NCBI RefSeq assembly: GCF_000236865.1 | Contig: NZ_HE611018.1 | Span: forward strand, 52,825 to 103,015 | DNA: 50,191 nt | Origin: Senegalimassilia anaerobia JC110 | GTDB lineage: Bacteria; Actinomycetota; Coriobacteriia; Coriobacteriales; Eggerthellaceae | Reading direction: 5' to 3' | Shown: positions 2,038-9,931 of the stretch, one piece after another | Layout of the letters: each line of letters begins with the position of its first letter | How positions within the stretch are numbered: position 1 is the stretch's first letter | Notes under the pieces: generated by a model | What the model saw: the letters and a program-made list of their open reading frames with translations, nothing else | What the model was told of the DNA's origin: nothing | Database searches by the model: none | Made by a program: the position numbers and the translations under genes

Positions 2038-2955
2038 CTATACGGCAAGGCCGACCGTCAAATGCATCATGTAGAACGCGAAACGCATGACGAAGATGCC
2101 GGCGAACGCCAGCAGACACGAGACAAGCAGGCGAACAAGCACGCGCTTGGAGAATGCAAGCTCATCCCCGCCGCGCACCACCGCTTCCCTCGACACGACA
2201 TGCATCGTGAAGGCGGCAAGCACGCAACCGGCAAAGCACATCAACGCGAACGCCAGCAGCATCGTGCGGTAATGCGGCACAAGGTCGGCTGCCGCGAGCA
2301 CCGAATTCGCAATACCGTTCAATAGCCGCCCCTGCACGATATACACGACCATATTCGCCGCAAACGCAATGAAGGGCACCGTCATCAGCAGCAGGCCGAA
2401 ACGCCCCGCAAGCGCGCGCCACTGGGCGGCATACAACGTGATCGCCGCCAGCAGAGGCCCTCCCATCAGGGCATTCAACCACAATGAAATCGGAACCGTA
2501 GGCAGGCTCCAAGTGACGATGGTGTCAACGGAATACGCGAGGGACACCATTATCACGAACGCGACGCCCATTGCCGCGATCATCATCAGCAGCAGCCGCT
2601 GCAGCCATACAAGGGGTTTGACCGAAAACGAGTACAGCCAATACAGGCCGCTGCACGCCAACAATCCCACCGCACTGACGACTTCGTTCGAAAGAGGGCT
2701 GGAGCCGAAATGCAAAAACACGTACAGCGCATTGGCCGGGTTCCCAAGATGCGTAGCCGACGCGACAAGCCCCACCATGGTAACCACAAGGGGGATGCAC
2801 ATGAACGTGCTGATGCGCGCCCGCATCGTCGATTCAAGTTTCGGAAACAACAGCACCGCCGCAACCAAGACAAGGGCGACGGCGCCCGAGGGGGCAAACG
2901 TGGTGAACAGCACCAACGTCACCTCGCTTAACGCGGTATCGAACCCGGAAATCAT
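2038..2955 (-). CDS. Second DmsC-like anchor subunit of a DMSO-reductase-family enzyme
   Basis: The protein has 305 residues with about eight membrane helices and the pattern of DmsC/NrfD-type anchors, including an N-terminal FTTFAPSGAVAL segment and a conserved LGNPANALYVFLHFGSSPLSNE-type loop matching the region after helix 2 in the dmsC upstream (3829-4686). Anchors of this family take electrons from the menaquinone pool to the Fe-S subunit. The chosen start follows an AGAGGGGGAG ribosome binding site; an upstream ATG (3009) would add 18 residues with no such site. The gene is last in the dms operon, after torD. Its product shares the anchor fold with the upstream dmsC but is longer and clearly diverged, so it may be an alternative anchor or serve another reductase. 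Confidence 0.85.
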   Translation of the reverse strand: MISGFDTALSEVTLVLFTTFAPSGAVALVLVAAVLLFPKLESTMRARISTFMCIPLVVTMVGLVASATHLGNPANALYVFLHFGSSPLSNEVVSAVGLLACSGLYWLYSFSVKPLVWLQRLLLMMIAAMGVAFVIMVSLAYSVDTIVTWSLPTVPISLWLNALMGGPLLAAITLYAAQWRALAGRFGLLLMTVPFIAFAANMVVYIVQGRLLNGIANSVLAAADLVPHYRTMLLAFALMCFAGCVLAAFTMHVVSREAVVRGGDELAFSKRVLVRLLVSCLLAFAGIFVMRFAFYMMHLTVGLAV

Positions 2956-3009
2956 CAGCTCCCCCTCTTTGCAGCACTGCTCGACGCGAAACGCGCATAA
3001 CGCCCGCAT

Positions 3010-3063: not shown

Positions 3064-3735
3064 TTAGCGATAGAAGCGAGGCGTGACGACCTCCAACCCC
3101 AACGCCTCCCGAACGCCGTCCAAGCTTGCACGCGTTAAGCGAGCCAGCCCTTCATAGAAAGGATGCTCGGCGGCATCGGCAAGCTCGTCCAGGAAATGCC
3201 CCGCCCACGTCAGGAAATGAAGGCTCAGAAACTCGCCCAGGTCAGCGGGCTGGTTTTGAGCAAGCCACGCCATAAGGGCAAGCATGAGCCCGATATGATC
3301 CTCCGGCGTTTTCTCGTCAGCGGTTCGCGCAACGCCGTGTTCACGCATCCATGCGCGCAGCTCAAGGGTGGTCGCACCGAACACCACGCACTCGCGATCG
3401 GTGTATACCGAGCCCCACGGCGGCGCCGGCTTTGCGCCCGGGCCGATGAACAAGCGGCGATATTCCCACATCAGATCATCGTCTGCGACAAAGGCGCCGC
3501 CCTCTCCGGCAGCACGGCTCGGGGCAAGACCCTCAACCATCATGCCCAAACAGCGAGCGGCCTGCGCCTCGCCGACGAAGGGCCATTCCGCGCCGGCAGC
3601 CTGCGCATCAAGCGCAGCGACCGCCGCAAACTCGGCGCCGGCATCGCCCGTGCGCGGGTCCTGCAGGAAAAACGGGGCCAGCGTGTTCCCTAAAAACGCA
3701 ACGCCTTCAAGCGTCGCAGCATCAAGATCCGTCAT
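3064..3735 (-). CDS. TorD/DmsD-family Tat-redox enzyme maturation chaperone
   Basis: The protein has 223 residues and is cytoplasmic. The family marks are EYRRLFIGPG followed by PPWGSVY in the middle, the PEDHIGLMLALM segment near residue 145, and a C-terminal LHFLTWAGHFLDEL helix, all characteristic of TorD-like chaperones. These all-helical proteins bind the Tat signal peptide of a molybdoenzyme and hold it until the cofactor is inserted. The gene follows dmsC in the operon and its expected client is the DmsA encoded at 5336-7771, which carries a twin-arginine signal. The ATG has an AAGGAGAGG ribosome binding site. Confidence 0.9.
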   Translation of the reverse strand: MTDLDAATLEGVAFLGNTLAPFFLQDPRTGDAGAEFAAVAALDAQAAGAEWPFVGEAQAARCLGMMVEGLAPSRAAGEGGAFVADDDLMWEYRRLFIGPGAKPAPPWGSVYTDRECVVFGATTLELRAWMREHGVARTADEKTPEDHIGLMLALMAWLAQNQPADLGEFLSLHFLTWAGHFLDELADAAEHPFYEGLARLTRASLDGVREALGLEVVTPRFYR

Positions 3736-3828: not shown

Positions 3829-4686
3829 TTAGCCGATATACAGGCCAACGCTCAGCTGCACCGCGTAGAACGCCAGGCGAGCGGCGAACACGCCCACGAT
3901 TGCCAGCACCGGAGCCGCAGCGGCAAGCGCCGTGGACTTCGAGTTACGCAGAGCCATGAAGGCGGCGGCTGCGGCAACGACCATGCACACCACGCCGATC
4001 CACATGGGAGCGGAGGCGGCGGCGACCAGGTCCGCGCCATCGACCAGCGCATTGCTCATGCCGGACACGTTCATGACCTGCACCAACAGGCCAACAACAC
4101 CAAGGACCAGGCCGATGACCAGCACCGCCAGAGCCGCCATCTTGAAGCCGCCCTTCGCAGCGTCCTCAAGCGCACCGGACAGCGCCAGCACGAGCACGCC
4201 CAGGGAAACGCCGCCCAGCAGGCTGAAGCCCAGCACGGCAACGGGGACCATCGGGGTGTTCCAGGAAGCGATGGTCTCCATCATGTAGGCAGCGCCCGTG
4301 AAGCACGCGAACACGATCGCCATGACAGCTACCACAGCGGCAAAACCCTTGCGAGCACCCTCGCCAAGCTTGCCGGCGAGCGCCACGATCCAGTACACGA
4401 TAGCCAGCACGGCGAACACGACACCGGCGAGCAGCTCGTTGGACAGCGGACTCGCGCCCAGGCCGGCGAACACGCCGAACGCATGCATGGGGCTAGCCAG
4501 GTGGAAGAACGCGCAGATGAAGCCGGCCACCAGCACGACGACCGGGATGGTGGTCATACGGTCGATCTTCTTCAGCTGCTCATCGGAGAACTTCGTGGTG
4601 AAGAAAGCCACGGCCAGCGCGATGAACGCGCCCGCGCCGATAGGCGCCAGCGTGGTGAACAGGGCCAAAGGCAGCTCTGCCATCAT
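3829..4686 (-). CDS. dmsC: DmsC-type membrane anchor subunit
   Basis: The protein has 285 residues with eight predicted membrane helices. It starts MMAELPLALFTTLAPIGAGAF, the usual N-terminus of DmsC anchors, and has the conserved FFHLASPMHAFG and GASPLSNE segments. It oxidises menaquinol in the membrane and passes electrons to DmsB. Only one base separates its start codon from the dmsB stop codon, and its GGAGGTGAT ribosome binding site lies inside the end of dmsB, so the two are translationally coupled. Length and order (A-B-C) match the classic DMSO reductase operon. Confidence 0.92.
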   Translation of the reverse strand: MMAELPLALFTTLAPIGAGAFIALAVAFFTTKFSDEQLKKIDRMTTIPVVVLVAGFICAFFHLASPMHAFGVFAGLGASPLSNELLAGVVFAVLAIVYWIVALAGKLGEGARKGFAAVVAVMAIVFACFTGAAYMMETIASWNTPMVPVAVLGFSLLGGVSLGVLVLALSGALEDAAKGGFKMAALAVLVIGLVLGVVGLLVQVMNVSGMSNALVDGADLVAAASAPMWIGVVCMVVAAAAAFMALRNSKSTALAAAAPVLAIVGVFAARLAFYAVQLSVGLYIG

Positions 4687-4687
4687 G

Positions 4688-5308
4688 CTACATCACCTCC
4701 AGGGGATTCACGACTTTGCCGTCCTCCGCGCCTGCGGGCAGGGCATCAGCGGAAGCCTTGATGTATAGATTCGGTTTCGTGTAGGTGGGCTCGGGCAGGG
4801 GCGCGATGTTCCCGCGCTCGCCCAGCTTGGCCATTTCCTCGATCGTGCCGAAGTCCAGCGCGCGAGCCGGGCACGCCTCCACGCATACCGGCTTCTCACC
4901 TGCGGCGACGCGCTCGGCGCAGCCGTCGCACTTCACGCTGTGGCCCTTTTCACGATCGACCTTCGGCGCGTTGTACGGGCAGGCCATGTGGCAGTAGCCG
5001 CAGCCGATGCACTTGTCGGCGTCCACGGACACCAGACCGGTTTCGGGGTCTTTGTGCATTGCGGTGGTCGGGCACACCTTGGTGCACGCCGGGTCATCGC
5101 AGTGGTTGCACGACATGGACAGCGGATAGCTCACGCAGCTGCTGATGACGCAGCCGTTCGCATCGCGCTCGGTCGTGCCCAACGTCACCTCGTACACCTT
5201 GCGGAACGCGGTGCCGACGCTCAGGTCCTTGAAATCCTTGCAGGCCATCTCGCAGGTTTTGCAACCCGTGCAGCGAGTGCCGTCGAAATGAAATGCATAT
5301 CGAGTCAT
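4688..5308 (-). CDS. dmsB: DmsB-type four [4Fe-4S] electron-transfer subunit
   Basis: The protein has 206 residues. Four cysteine clusters can be read in order: CTGCKTCEMAC near residue 13, CNHCDDPACTKVCP, CIGCGYCHMACP, and CDGCAERVAAGEKPVCVEACP. Together these bind the four [4Fe-4S] centres that wire the anchor to the molybdenum site. The start MTRYAFHFDGTRCTGC is typical of DmsB, and the ATG has a GAGAGGAG ribosome binding site. There is no signal peptide; such subunits are exported in complex with the Tat-targeted catalytic subunit. It sits 27 nt after dmsA. Confidence 0.95.
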   Translation of the reverse strand: MTRYAFHFDGTRCTGCKTCEMACKDFKDLSVGTAFRKVYEVTLGTTERDANGCVISSCVSYPLSMSCNHCDDPACTKVCPTTAMHKDPETGLVSVDADKCIGCGYCHMACPYNAPKVDREKGHSVKCDGCAERVAAGEKPVCVEACPARALDFGTIEEMAKLGERGNIAPLPEPTYTKPNLYIKASADALPAGAEDGKVVNPLEVM

Positions 5309-5335: not shown

Positions 5336-7771
5336 TTAAGCCTTCACGACTTCGCAGATGTTGGAATGCTGCGGATTGCCCTTTGCCAACGGGCTCGGGC
5401 GATGCGTGGTTAGCGTGTTGATGCAACCACCCTTGTCCAGACGAGCCTTGGGATCGGAGGAGGACATGTCCGCATTGTGCCAAGCGCCCTGGGAGATGGC
5501 GACCATACCCGGGATAACGCGCGGCGTAACCTTCGCCAGCAGCTCGATGGTGCCGAACTCGTTCTTCACTTGGACGGTGTCGCCCTGCTTGATGCCGCGA
5601 GGTTCCGCGTCGGCGGGATTGATCCAAGCCTCCTGCGGGTTGACCTCCTTCAGCTCCTCGATACCGCCCCAAGAGGAATGCAGACGACCGCGATAATGGA
5701 AGCCGCCCAACGCCAACGGATACTCGTCGGTGGTCGTTTCAACGCCATCCCACTCGGGGACGTACGCAGGAATCGGAGGCAGCGTATTCAGGCACGCAAG
5801 CGTATCGCCATCGGTCAGCTCCCAGCCTTCGGTGTCTTTCAGCAGCTTCTCAGAGAAGATCTCGATCTTGCCGGAAGGCGTGGTCAGGGCATTGGCCGCA
5901 GGGTCGTCGCGGAACTTCTTCATGGAGATGGTGGGGGCGTATTCGCGCGTGTACACGCCCATCTTCACCGCCTCGTCCCACGTGGGCAGCTCCTCGTCCT
6001 TCTCGCGAGACTTCTCGTACAGCTCCTTCATCCACTCGAGCTCGGTCTTGCCCTCGGTGAACTTATCTTTAATGCCGAACTTGTCGGCGATAAGCTCGCA
6101 CATCTCGTAGCAGGTCTTGCGCTCGTACTTCACGGACGTAGCAGGGGTGCCGGTGATGACATAGCCCCAGTTCGAACCCGTGGCGATCTGCGAGTTCTGC
6201 TCAAAGCGGAACATGTCGGGCAGGATGACGTCGGAATACTTCAGGGAATCGGTCATCACGATATCAATGCCCAGGATGAACTCGCACAGCGACTCGTCCA
6301 CCAGGATGTCATGCGCGTAGTTGATGTCGCCATGCTGATTGGTCAGGCAGTTGCCGGCATAGTTGATCATGTACTTGATGCCAGTGTTCAGCTTGTCGAC
6401 GTATTTCACGCCCCAGTTCTTGGCCGTCATGTCCGCGCCATGCTTGATGGCGTCGGTCCACACGAAGCACGAGATGGAGGCCTTCACCGGATTGGTGCCC
6501 GCCGGCAGGGACTGCAGCGTCGGGCTGTTGCGCGCCTCGCGGCAACCGTTATTGGTGCCCGCCAGGCCGACCTGGCCGACCAGGCACGGCAGGGCCATGA
6601 TAGACCAGGACGTCCACTCACCGTTGCTGCGGCGCTGCGGGCCCCAGCCCTGGCAGACGAACAGCGGCTTGGTGGTGCCGATCTCTTCAGCCAGCTCCTC
6701 GATCTTCTTCTCGGGGATACCGGTGACCTTGGCAGCCCACGCCGGCGTCTTCTCCACCTTGTCGTAGCCCATGCCCATAACGTAATCGAAGTAGGACATG
6801 TTCTTGCCCTGATATGCCTCGGGCATGGTCTGCTCGTCAAAGCCCACGCAGTAGGTGTGCAGGAAGTCCATATCGCACATGTCGTGCTGAATCAGGTAAT
6901 GGGCGATACCCGCGACCAACGCGGCGTCGGTGCCGGGATTGATGGGCAACCACTGGTCGGAATGGCCCATGATGGAGTCGTTCATGCGAGGGTCGATCAC
7001 ATAGATCTTCGCACCGGTCTTCTCGCGCAGCTGGACCCAATCGTAATGAGTGGTAAGACCGCCCTGGCGCGTTTCGGTGGGGCTGGTGCCGAACATGAGG
7101 ATGAGCTTGGCATCCTCGGCGTTCTTGAAGGAGCTGCCGCCATTGTTCTTGGAGCCGTACATGTAAGGGGTGATGGCCGTGATCTGGGCAGTGGAATAAT
7201 CGCCGTAGCGATTCAGGCTGCCGCCCAGCATGTTCAGCAGTCGATTGAACGGACGAGCCGTGGTTGCGGAAACGCCGGTCGCATACGGCAGGTACACGGC
7301 CTCGTTGCCATACTTTTCGATAACCTCTTTGAGCTTCGTGGCTGCCAGATCGATAGCCTCGTCCCAAGAGATGCGCTCGAACTTGCCCTCGCCGCGCTTG
7401 CCGACGCGCTTCATGGGGTAGTTGATGCGATCGGGATGGTTCATCCAACGACGATACGTACGGCCACGCAGGCACGCACGGGGCTGCGGGTCGTCGAAGC
7501 CGGCGTCCTTGCTCGTGCAGGTGTCCACCCACACAACCTCGTCGTCCTTCACATGGAACTTCAGGCTGCAGCGGCCCGGGCAGTTGATGGCGCAATGGCC
7601 CCACGTGATCTTCTCCTCGGACTCCGCGAGTGCCGGCTCGGTTGCGCCGAACAGGTTCGCGCCCGTTGCAGCGGCGCCGCCGACGGCGGCCAGAGCACCC
7701 AGCGCACCCGTCGACTTGACGAACGTGCGGCGGTTCATGCTTGGCATGTCTTGCATTGCCTCCCCCTTCAT
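5336..7771 (-). CDS. dmsA: DmsA-type molybdopterin oxidoreductase catalytic subunit, Tat-exported
   Basis: The protein has 811 residues and belongs to the bis-MGD DMSO reductase family. A twin-arginine signal (NRRTFVK at about 13-19, hydrophobic stretch, cleavage near ALA-ES at about 48-51) directs export. Cys60, Cys64, Cys68 and Cys100 fit the N-terminal [4Fe-4S] motif. Ser193 in the YGDYSTAQ segment aligns with the serine that ligates molybdenum in DmsA/DorA enzymes, which argues for an S- or N-oxide reductase rather than a formate dehydrogenase or nitrate reductase. The substrate itself cannot be read from sequence; Eggerthellaceae hold many paralogues with different acceptors. Two start codons are possible: this ATG (AAGGAAAGA upstream) or the one at 7756 preceded by AAGGGGGAGG. 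It is first in the operon. Confidence 0.93.
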   Translation of the reverse strand: MKGEAMQDMPSMNRRTFVKSTGALGALAAVGGAAATGANLFGATEPALAESEEKITWGHCAINCPGRCSLKFHVKDDEVVWVDTCTSKDAGFDDPQPRACLRGRTYRRWMNHPDRINYPMKRVGKRGEGKFERISWDEAIDLAATKLKEVIEKYGNEAVYLPYATGVSATTARPFNRLLNMLGGSLNRYGDYSTAQITAITPYMYGSKNNGGSSFKNAEDAKLILMFGTSPTETRQGGLTTHYDWVQLREKTGAKIYVIDPRMNDSIMGHSDQWLPINPGTDAALVAGIAHYLIQHDMCDMDFLHTYCVGFDEQTMPEAYQGKNMSYFDYVMGMGYDKVEKTPAWAAKVTGIPEKKIEELAEEIGTTKPLFVCQGWGPQRRSNGEWTSWSIMALPCLVGQVGLAGTNNGCREARNSPTLQSLPAGTNPVKASISCFVWTDAIKHGADMTAKNWGVKYVDKLNTGIKYMINYAGNCLTNQHGDINYAHDILVDESLCEFILGIDIVMTDSLKYSDVILPDMFRFEQNSQIATGSNWGYVITGTPATSVKYERKTCYEMCELIADKFGIKDKFTEGKTELEWMKELYEKSREKDEELPTWDEAVKMGVYTREYAPTISMKKFRDDPAANALTTPSGKIEIFSEKLLKDTEGWELTDGDTLACLNTLPPIPAYVPEWDGVETTTDEYPLALGGFHYRGRLHSSWGGIEELKEVNPQEAWINPADAEPRGIKQGDTVQVKNEFGTIELLAKVTPRVIPGMVAISQGAWHNADMSSSDPKARLDKGGCINTLTTHRPSPLAKGNPQHSNICEVVKA

Positions 7772-8164
7772 TCTTTCCTTTTCGCCTCTGCCGAAACGGC
7801 TGCGCTATCGCGCGCCGCGACACGGCTTCTTCCTTTCGCGACCTTTTCGCCGCGCACCACCCTTGCTTCCTTAGTTGGGGCTCGTCTACCCTCCAAGCGC
7901 GGATTTGGTGATGAAATCTTATCGCCTTGTTTGCCCCACCGTGTCACATAAAACGTGCGAATTTCACGTTTGCCCAGTTCACAGGCTATCACCCATTACA
8001 GTATGTGACAGCCTGAACCCGATTGCGCGCTATACTGTTTTGAGCAATCGATTTCGCATTCTTGCTATGCAGCGGCGAAATCACGCAAGGGAGAAGAGCA
8101 CTCGACCATCCGCCGCCGGCACCTTCAGGCGGGCGAACGGCAGTGCCCGACGACGAGGATCTCT
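7772..8164. promoter_or_regulatory. Divergent control region between dmsA and the LuxR-type regulator
   Basis: This 393-bp gene-free region holds two inverted repeats: a perfect 7-bp pair (7951-7957 with 7965-7971, 7-nt spacer) and an 11-bp pair with one mismatch (7982-7992 with 8005-8015, 12-nt spacer). A -10-like TATACT for the regulator is at 8031-8036 and a -10-like TAAGAT for dmsA (minus strand) at 7916-7921. Each has a GTGACA hexamer 20 bp upstream, too far for a normal -35, which would fit activator-dependent promoters. The inverted repeats lie between the two -10 boxes, the expected place for a shared regulator site. Binding by the neighbouring LuxR protein is inferred. Confidence 0.6.
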
Positions 8165-9931
8165 GTGGCACGCACACGCATTTCCAACATAGCCCGCACG
8201 TTCAAGCCGAACACCGCATCGCTTGGATACGCCCTCTTTTTGGCCATCAACGCAGCCGGCGTTTGGGGTGGCGTGTTCCCGTTTTTACCCATGAGCTTCC
8301 AAACCCCGGATGTCATGTTCTGGTTCTTCTTTATGCAGTCGCTCGTGTTCTCGCTATGCTATTTCGCCAGCGCCATCGGAGTGTACTACCTTCCCGGACC
8401 CACGCGCCGATTCATGGTGATGCTCGCAAGCGCGCCATATCTGCTTGGCTGGTGCTGCCTTATCGGGGCCATTTACCTGCATGGAATCGCTCAGATATTG
8501 GTAATCGCCGGCGGTGCGCTTCTGGGCTTAGGGTCTGCCGGTTTCTACATGCTGTGGCAGCGACTGTTCGCCAGCTTCGACGCAGACCATGGCAACCATG
8601 ATCTGATCCTGGGCACCGCTTATGGTGCGCTTCTGTACTTCGCCCTGTACGCCATCCCGCAAGCCGTGACCGCGTTTCTCATCCCGCTGGTGTTCATGCC
8701 GCTGTTCGCGCTTGCCATCGTGCTGAAAAGCCGGCACATCGACTTGAAGCAGCCCATGTTCGAGGATGTTCCGCGCGAGCACCCGAACGTGTATAGGCGC
8801 GTGCTGCGCGATTACTGGCGCAGCGCCTTGTGCGTCGGCGCCATCGCATTCTGCACCGGCGTCATGCGCTCGCTGGCCATCGGCGACCCGCGAGTCGGCA
8901 GCCTTGTGAACCTGCTGTCGATGACGGGATGCCTGGTTGCGGGCATCGGCGTTTTGGTGCTCTGGCAGTTCAAGAACGTGAGAATGAATGTCGCCAACGC
9001 CTACCGCATCGCCTTCCCGTTGCTCATCACCTCGTTCCTGGTGCTTCCGTTTTGCAGCGACGGTTATGCGCGATGGCAAGCCGCCATCCTGTATGCGGTA
9101 TACAGTGTCGCCATCGCGCTCATGATGATCCAGTGCGCGCAGGCATCGCGCGACCGAGGCATCAACCCCGTGTTCATCTACGGCTTCTTCGCCGGCATCG
9201 TGTACGCGTTGCATGATGTCGGGTTCCTTGCCGGCACGTTCGCCGAGCAGATCCGCGTCATGGGCATGCAGCCCGATGCCGTCGTCGCGCTGGTGGCGGT
9301 GTATTTGCTCGGTCTCATGTTCTTCATCGGCCAGGGCGGCTTCAAGCGAGCATTGGCCGCAAGCCAAGCAGAGGATATCGAGCTCGTCGCTGGCATGCCT
9401 TTGCAAATCGCCGATATCAACGAGCGCCAAACCGACCTCGATGAGGCCGAATCGGAAAGCGAAGCGTCTCCCGCGGCGAACGCCGGATGCGCGGGCCCCT
9501 GTCCTTTCAACATGCAAGATATCGGCTTGTTCGAGATGAGGCCCATCATCATCGCACGGACGGATACCGAGAACGCCCTGACCGTCGAAGAGCCTGCGAT
9601 GGCGCCCGACAACGGCCCCTTCCCGACGGATACCGCAAAACTCGAGAAACGCGACCATGCCCGCAGCTCCGATGCACCCAACTACCAGGATCGCCTGTCG
9701 AAGCAGGCTGCGCTAGTTCGACAGCACTACCGCCTATCCGCACGCGAAACCGAGGTCATGGAGCTCATCGCCCGCGGCAACACCGTGGCGCGCATCGCCG
9801 AGCAGCTGGTGGTTTCGGAAAACACCATCCGAACCCACAGCAAGCGCATTTACGCCAAGCTGGATATCCACAAGAAGCAGGAGCTCGTCGACCTGCTGGA
9901 AACGTTCAATCCGAAAGACCTGGAAGATTAG
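8165..9931 (+). CDS. LuxR-family transcriptional regulator with membrane-embedded N-terminal half
   Basis: The protein has 588 residues. Residues 1 to about 400 contain roughly twelve hydrophobic helices resembling a transporter-like sensor; a hydrophilic acidic linker follows (about 410-515), and residues about 522-583 are a LuxR/GerE helix-turn-helix (LSARETEVMELIARGNTVAR, then VSENTIRTHSKRIYAKL). Membrane-bound LuxR regulators of this plan are numerous in Eggerthellaceae and are usually found next to reductase operons. It is divergent from dmsA, so it probably controls that operon in response to its substrate or membrane state (inferred). The start is GTG with GAGG six bases upstream; the next in-frame ATG would remove the first membrane helix. 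Confidence 0.9.
   Translation: MARTRISNIARTFKPNTASLGYALFLAINAAGVWGGVFPFLPMSFQTPDVMFWFFFMQSLVFSLCYFASAIGVYYLPGPTRRFMVMLASAPYLLGWCCLIGAIYLHGIAQILVIAGGALLGLGSAGFYMLWQRLFASFDADHGNHDLILGTAYGALLYFALYAIPQAVTAFLIPLVFMPLFALAIVLKSRHIDLKQPMFEDVPREHPNVYRRVLRDYWRSALCVGAIAFCTGVMRSLAIGDPRVGSLVNLLSMTGCLVAGIGVLVLWQFKNVRMNVANAYRIAFPLLITSFLVLPFCSDGYARWQAAILYAVYSVAIALMMIQCAQASRDRGINPVFIYGFFAGIVYALHDVGFLAGTFAEQIRVMGMQPDAVVALVAVYLLGLMFFIGQGGFKRALAASQAEDIELVAGMPLQIADINERQTDLDEAESESEASPAANAGCAGPCPFNMQDIGLFEMRPIIIARTDTENALTVEEPAMAPDNGPFPTDTAKLEKRDHARSSDAPNYQDRLSKQAALVRQHYRLSARETEVMELIARGNTVARIAEQLVVSENTIRTHSKRIYAKLDIHKKQELVDLLETFNPKDLED

Follow-up and report, generated by a model that had tools for sequence, protein, structure and literature searches.

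A conserved dyad between divergent dmsABC and luxR genes is a probable operator of a 12-helix membrane LuxR-type regulator in Eggerthellaceae

The stretch of DNA analysed here (50,191 nucleotides, referred to as the window) is part of a 2.4-Mb Eggerthellaceae genome, in which a minus-strand reductase operon of the DMSO/selenate family is divergent from a plus-strand luxR gene. The arrangement raises the question of whether the two promoters share a regulatory site, and which protein would bind it. On the minus strand lie dmsA (5336–7771, putative start codon), coding for a Tat-targeted DMSO/selenate-family molybdoenzyme catalytic subunit (TIGR02166, 1022.6 bits against a cut-off of 777.7), dmsB (4688–5308) for the iron-sulfur subunit (PF13247; TIGR02951 at 212.8 bits, slightly below its cut-off of 214.1), dmsC (3829–4686) for the membrane anchor (PF04976), and a gene for a DmsD-type Tat proofreading chaperone (3064–3735; NF008632, 177.6 bits, cut-off 162). 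The chaperone gene is followed, likewise on the minus strand, by a gene for a second DmsC-like anchor (2038–3009; PF04976, E 1.4e-32).

The luxR gene (8165–9931, plus strand) encodes a membrane LuxR-type regulator of 588 aa. Its C-terminal GerE helix-turn-helix (aa 524–577) matches PF00196 (E 3.5e-16, 59 bits against a cut-off of 23.5), as in other members of the membrane LuxR family. A hydropathy scan alone gave an ambiguous picture of the membrane part; in the AlphaFold2 model (mean pLDDT 77, below 50 in the linker at 401–503) we counted 12 long helices between aa 17 and 389, within the 10–12 transmembrane helices that characterise the family, and the top PDB matches of the model were MFS transporters (E ~1e-5, TM-score by query 0.34–0.42). 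The gene also stands beside a molybdenum- or flavin-dependent enzyme, here the divergent DmsABC-type operon. With its 12 helices and MFS-like membrane part, this LuxR protein belongs to the family described by Dong et al. 2022 in the available text of PMC9734109; the closest named record to it is UBA5906 (78% identity).

The first-pass annotation had noted two inverted repeats lying between the -10 boxes, and a nearly symmetrical placing of GTGACA that would suit a shared activator site. All the elements it listed are present: a perfect 7-bp repeat (AAACGTG at 7951–7957, CACGTTT at 7965–7971), an 11-bp repeat with one mismatch (7982–7992 and 8005–8015), the -10 boxes TAAGAT (minus strand, 7916–7921) and TATACT (plus strand, 8031–8036), and GTGACA exactly 20 nt upstream of each box, once per strand. 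The 109 bases separating the two -10 boxes were dinucleotide-shuffled 1000 times. Perfect 7-bp repeats with a spacer of 3–20 arose in 5.4% of these shuffles, which makes the shorter repeat unremarkable, and 11-bp repeats having no more than one mismatch arose in 0.3%, which makes the longer one remarkable. When orthologous loci were compared, neither was conserved. Among 57 closer loci the 7-bp repeat is complete only in the window itself (one further locus has 6 of the 7 pairs), and the outer arms of the 11-bp repeat (CAGGC/GCCTG) are lost even inside the window's genus, while its inner TATCAC...GTGAYA is kept in all three species of that genus. This lack of conservation rules out the two repeats as the operator and refutes them as named, but leaves the idea of a shared site standing; a site between both promoters is indeed supported by the analysis below. 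More telling than either named repeat is a 9-bp match in the window, TGTCACATA at 7942–7950 and TATGTGACA at 8002–8010, the left copy of which is half of a family-wide dyad.

To describe this dyad, we collected relatives of the window's LuxR. Of 100 related genomes, 46 have one at E ≤ 1e-60; of 138 genomes of the family, 76 have one at E ≤ 1e-100. Altogether 106 upstream regions were examined, sometimes several per genome; 97 have a divergent dmsA relative adjoining luxR, and the nine without an adjacent dmsA match were set aside. The 97 loci are not independent, as many share a genus. Conserved across these intergenics is a dyad with the core TCACAT-N5-ATGTGA, usually reading TGTCACATA... In the window it corresponds to O1, an imperfect 21-bp dyad TGTCACAT-AAAAC-GTGCGAAT (7942–7962, core at 7944–7960) that reads TGTCACATAAAACGTGCGAAT, with a perfect left half and a degenerate right half (10/12); the left GTGACA of the first-pass annotation is the promoter-proximal half of this dyad.

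At least 10 of the 12 core letters are found in 74 of the 97 intergenics versus 0.8% of shuffles, and the perfect core in 17 of 97 versus none of 4850 shuffles. A threshold of at least 8 letters is reached by 96 of the 97 loci, yet also by 42% of shuffles; the one locus below it was dropped, so that positional counts use 96. Compared with equal-length adjacent dms coding sequences (five loci excluded for length), at least 10 letters occur in 70 of 92 intergenics and in one of 92 controls, with the reservation that the dyad was derived from the same loci in which it is counted, which shuffles and coding controls cure only partly. Judged from sequence, the dyad is a well-supported candidate regulatory site, single-copy and family-wide.

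Its position relative to dmsA is nearly invariant. In 77 of 96 loci a -10 core, TAnnnT when read on the dms strand, starts 27–29 nt to the left of the dyad core, the offset being exactly 28 nt in 55. With the start taken 7 nt past the box (near 7909 in the window), this fixed placement puts the dyad centre near -43, which we infer to be a class II activator position. The part that the first-pass annotation gave to GTGACA on this side is borne out across the family, the gap to the dmsA -10 box being 20 nt in 55, 21 nt in 14 and 19 nt in 8 of the 96 loci. The divergent intergenics contain no conserved -35 hexamer at dmsA, and a sigma-70 consensus scan of 7700–8300 returned no promoter. Missing -35 boxes, if they are indeed missing, would explain the empty scan; the predicted -10 boxes and transcription starts of dmsA and luxR rest on conservation instead.

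On the other side of the dyad, an exact TATACT lies between it and luxR in 49 of 96 loci, accompanied by no conserved -35 element, and 47 lack the exact box. The window's TATACT gives a putative luxR start near 8043 and an O1 centre near -91. For a phase test, 9 of the 49 loci were excluded as lying outside 60–165 bp, and L030 was added by hand to the remaining 40. The resulting 41 dyad–TATACT distances, from 18 genera, are 77, 87–89, 96–100, 108–110, 117, 130, 143 and 151 bp. At a period of 10.5 bp the Rayleigh R is 0.82 for the 41 loci, 0.80 for the 29 distinct genus–distance values, and 0.80 with one value per genus (18 genera, p ~1e-5). The turn class of the distance changes at least 14 times on a tree that is weakly resolved (130 columns) and in which the branches of L035 and L092 are implausibly long, probably through misread frames. 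The common distances place the dyad at about -91, -102 or -113 of luxR, in helical phase, and we infer that this stepping of ~10.5 bp fits class I activation. With relaxed -10 boxes, distant paralogues show a weak phase (R = 0.44, 18 loci), with TATGCT at 94–95.

The window's genus has an accessory site as well. O2, TATCACCC-N8-ATGTGACA (7987–8010), consists of two half-sites, forms the inner part of the 11-bp repeat and is centred near -44.5 of luxR. In all three species of the genus its GTGACA and the luxR TATACT are 20 nt apart, and GTGAYA at this distance is found in 3 of the 49 loci with that box, all of them in this genus. The near-symmetrical layout remarked on earlier is therefore real in the window's genus, and elsewhere the layout is asymmetric. 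The spacer of O2 is 8, not 5, so that O2 may be weaker or differently bound. More generally, single half-sites of the TCACAT/ATGTGA type within 75 bp past the dyad, counted in the 57 closer loci only, occur in 17 of them versus 3.3 expected.

Our preferred reading, to which we give a probability of roughly 0.8, is that O1 serves as operator for the MFS-like 12-TM LuxR protein whose gene diverges from dmsABC, and that this protein would switch on dmsABC and its own gene. The membrane domain would sense the reductase substrate, and the cytoplasmic helix-turn-helix would bind TGTCACAT-N5-ATGTGACA, probably as a dimer. Bound at O1 near -43, LuxR would replace the missing -35 contact and turn on dmsABC by class II activation. 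O1 also lies ~91 bp ahead of the luxR start, on the same helix face, and from there the protein would help luxR transcription (class I, positive autoregulation), the distance being one or two helical turns longer in other genera. In the window's genus the presumably weaker O2 at -44.5 would add direct input to luxR.

An alternative that we consider unlikely is that the dyad is a LuxR operator for dmsA alone, luxR being transcribed independently and the periodic spacing coming from ancestry or unrelated constraints. The distance from the dyad to the dmsA -10 box is fixed, but that to the luxR start ranges from 28 to 1060 bp. In eight loci the dyad is 345–1024 bp from the luxR TATACT, which makes autoregulation from it unlikely there, and in G024 and G142 luxR is found on another contig. 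Against this, the phase holds at one value per genus despite the repeated changes of turn class. One genome, G041 (L030/L219), has lost dmsA together with its -10 box and retains the dyad 98 bp from the luxR TATACT. The level of the family member DadR, moreover, goes up with its inducer, according to the available text of PMC9734109.

Whether the protein at the dyad is this LuxR was approached through copy number, paralogues and the recognition helix. A 23-letter form of the dyad, searched with up to 3 mismatches in 12 genomes, gave exactly one match per genome at 0–1 mismatches and two 3-mismatch matches overall; the reversed control gave none. Eleven of the 12 single copies precede a dmsA relative, even where luxR is 1.3 kb (G028) or 2.6 kb (G143) distant or on another contig (G024 and G142), and the twelfth is that of G041. 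A genome-wide dyad regulon was considered and rejected: in the window's own genome TCACATN5ATGTGA with up to 2 mismatches gave 32 matches versus 10 for the control, but the 23-letter form is single. Upstream of 12 other LuxR-type genes of the same genome, which have different recognition helices, no dyad was found (best 7–9 of 12 letters). The helix could be read in 92 of the 97 loci. Regulators with ..RTH.. pair with TCACA-type sites; those with ..NTVRMH.. have TTACAT..GTAC sites in 8 of 8 cases, versus 0 of 84 with T at that helix place. The helix change and the operator change each map once on the tree, which makes them one evolutionary event. This covariation is suggestive of a link between the dyad and the LuxR protein, short of proof.

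A further factor is likely at the dmsA promoter, given a second fixed element near -70. In the window this is CCAGTTCA (dmsA strand TGAACTGG; 7974–7981, minus strand), with the family form TGACCWGG, at about -65 to -72 of dmsA. Of 96 loci, 62 carry CNGNTCR (YGANCNG on the dms strand) at +12 to +17 from the dyad core, including 49 at exactly +14, versus 1 of 96 in the control bin.

It is in this light that binding of the dyad by another protein, such as a global anaerobic regulator of the CRP/FNR or some other type, with LuxR acting elsewhere, has to be weighed. The CRP consensus is TGTGA-N6-TCACA, and its half-site letters TGTGA/TCACA recur in the dyad; the TGACCWGG element, too, speaks for another factor at this promoter. 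The dyad has the half-sites reversed, however, as TCACA-N7-TGTGA, and each of the 12 genomes has a single near-exact site and no regulon, where CRP/FNR sites would show the opposite order and many copies per genome. Together with the helix/operator covariation and the absence of the dyad from the 12 paralogous LuxR loci, this makes such a binder improbable.

A reading in which LuxR represses from the dyad, blocking the dmsA -35 region until the substrate appears, strikes us as quite improbable: the dyad does cover the -35 region and sites there can repress, but each of the three family members that have been studied is an activator, and induction is abolished when it is deleted (PMC9734109, available text), the lack of a conserved -35 hexamer is as at activator-dependent promoters, and helical phasing ~91–134 bp from luxR would be needless. 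That the repeats act in RNA, as terminator, attenuator or 5′ leader structure, is barely credible, since, although inverted repeats exist and a terminator-like hairpin lies at 7907–7926 (two in 7700–8300, 0.9 expected), the dyad is upstream of both putative starts (about 7909 and 8043) and the letters conserved best make up a 21-bp DNA site at a promoter-fixed distance.

Several observations were made in passing on the second element. We rejected it as a site used by a regulator across the genome: with 2 mismatches allowed, TTGACCTGGGNAAACG gave 11–115 matches per genome versus 1–6 for the control (8 genomes), numbers that tell little about the element at the promoter because 4 of the 7 exact CGACCTGGGNAAACG places in the window's own genome belong to a dispersed repeat. 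Its four near copies (L344–L347, at G000:C3:75375, C3:85507, C3:109773 and C4:10934) hold CGACCTGGGNAAACG and have inverted ends ACTTCTGNGCGGTTT / AAACCGCNCAGAAGT, with a MITE- or REP-like look; a related 16-mer has 61 matches in G005. Elsewhere in the genome (L348/L349, G000:C4:75058 and 75244) two sites lie 186 bp apart, the clearer being GACCTGGGG-N14-CCCCAGGTC with flanks GTGGCAC/GTGCCAC, and these may be bound by the same factor as the second promoter element. Beside a distant LuxR relative (39% identity; L324, G009:C4:24059) we found a composite TTTACCTGGGGAAACG - AAAAT - TCACAA-N5-TGGTGACA, by which the two-element layout reaches beyond the dmsA clade.

In gut Eggerthellaceae, the membrane LuxR family governs the use of particular drugs, dietary compounds and electron acceptors. 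An operator with position rules offers a direct reporter and footprint target, makes regulons readable from genomes, and renders the insulation of dozens of sister regulators per cell directly testable. The regulator family is already known and its operators seem undescribed; the site is ordinary in kind and useful in detail, and what a specialist would not expect is the helical phasing, together with the question of insulation. Tentatively, and with the odds somewhat against so broad a statement, each 12-TM LuxR subfamily might read its own palindrome, placed in class II position before the enzyme and, ahead of the regulator's own gene, in class I helical phase, operators and recognition helices making up a one-regulator/one-operon code that insulates dozens of parallel respiratory circuits. 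Upstream of one LuxR paralogue (L131, G000:C2:356050-359500), 49 nt before its called start, we noted a perfect 19-bp palindrome ATCATGTTA-G-TAACATGAT (9+1+9) that adjoins another Tat-targeted reductase and is a candidate operator of this sister regulator.

The nearest known systems are DadR, HcdR and CadR of E. lenta, a strain of which has 83 transmembrane LuxR-type regulators (PMC9734109, available text, also for what follows on these proteins). All three are substrate-dependent activators of enzyme genes. DadR no longer functions when its TM domain or its DNA-binding domain is lost, with a caveat on expression of the latter mutant, and its amount increases with dopamine. They share with the window's LuxR the 12 predicted TM helices, the C-terminal PF00196 domain, a divergent molybdoenzyme operon and the class Coriobacteriia. 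They differ in the partner, a catechol dehydroxylase there and a DmsABC-type reductase here, and in that the present analysis proposes a concrete operator together with its spacing; the available text of PMC9734109 and of PMC11887054 describes no native operator. One further paper, PMC12771579, brings LuxR, MFS and Eggerthella together. Searching the open-licence literature, we found no published operator for any member of the membrane LuxR family.

The letters TGTCACAT-N5-ATGTGACA or TCACAT..ATGTGA differ from those of the lux box, and unlike LuxR quorum-sensing proteins the present regulator has an MFS-like membrane domain and no AHL-binding domain. The geometry is shared: the lux box is a ~20-bp palindrome centred near -42.5 (PMC4471428, available text), O1 spans 21 bp around -43 of the putative dmsA start, and the regulators of both systems have a GerE-type DNA-binding domain. 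For CRP, class II sites at -41.5 and class I sites at -61.5, -71.5 and -82.5, in ~10.5-bp steps, are given in the available text of PMC6301791. O1 would likewise be placed over -35, and the class I series extrapolated to -93, -103.5 and -114 comes within 2 bp of the dyad's -91, -102 and -113. CRP is nonetheless an unrelated protein with its half-sites in the opposite order, and at the locus described here, unlike in that system, one site would serve two divergent promoters in different modes.
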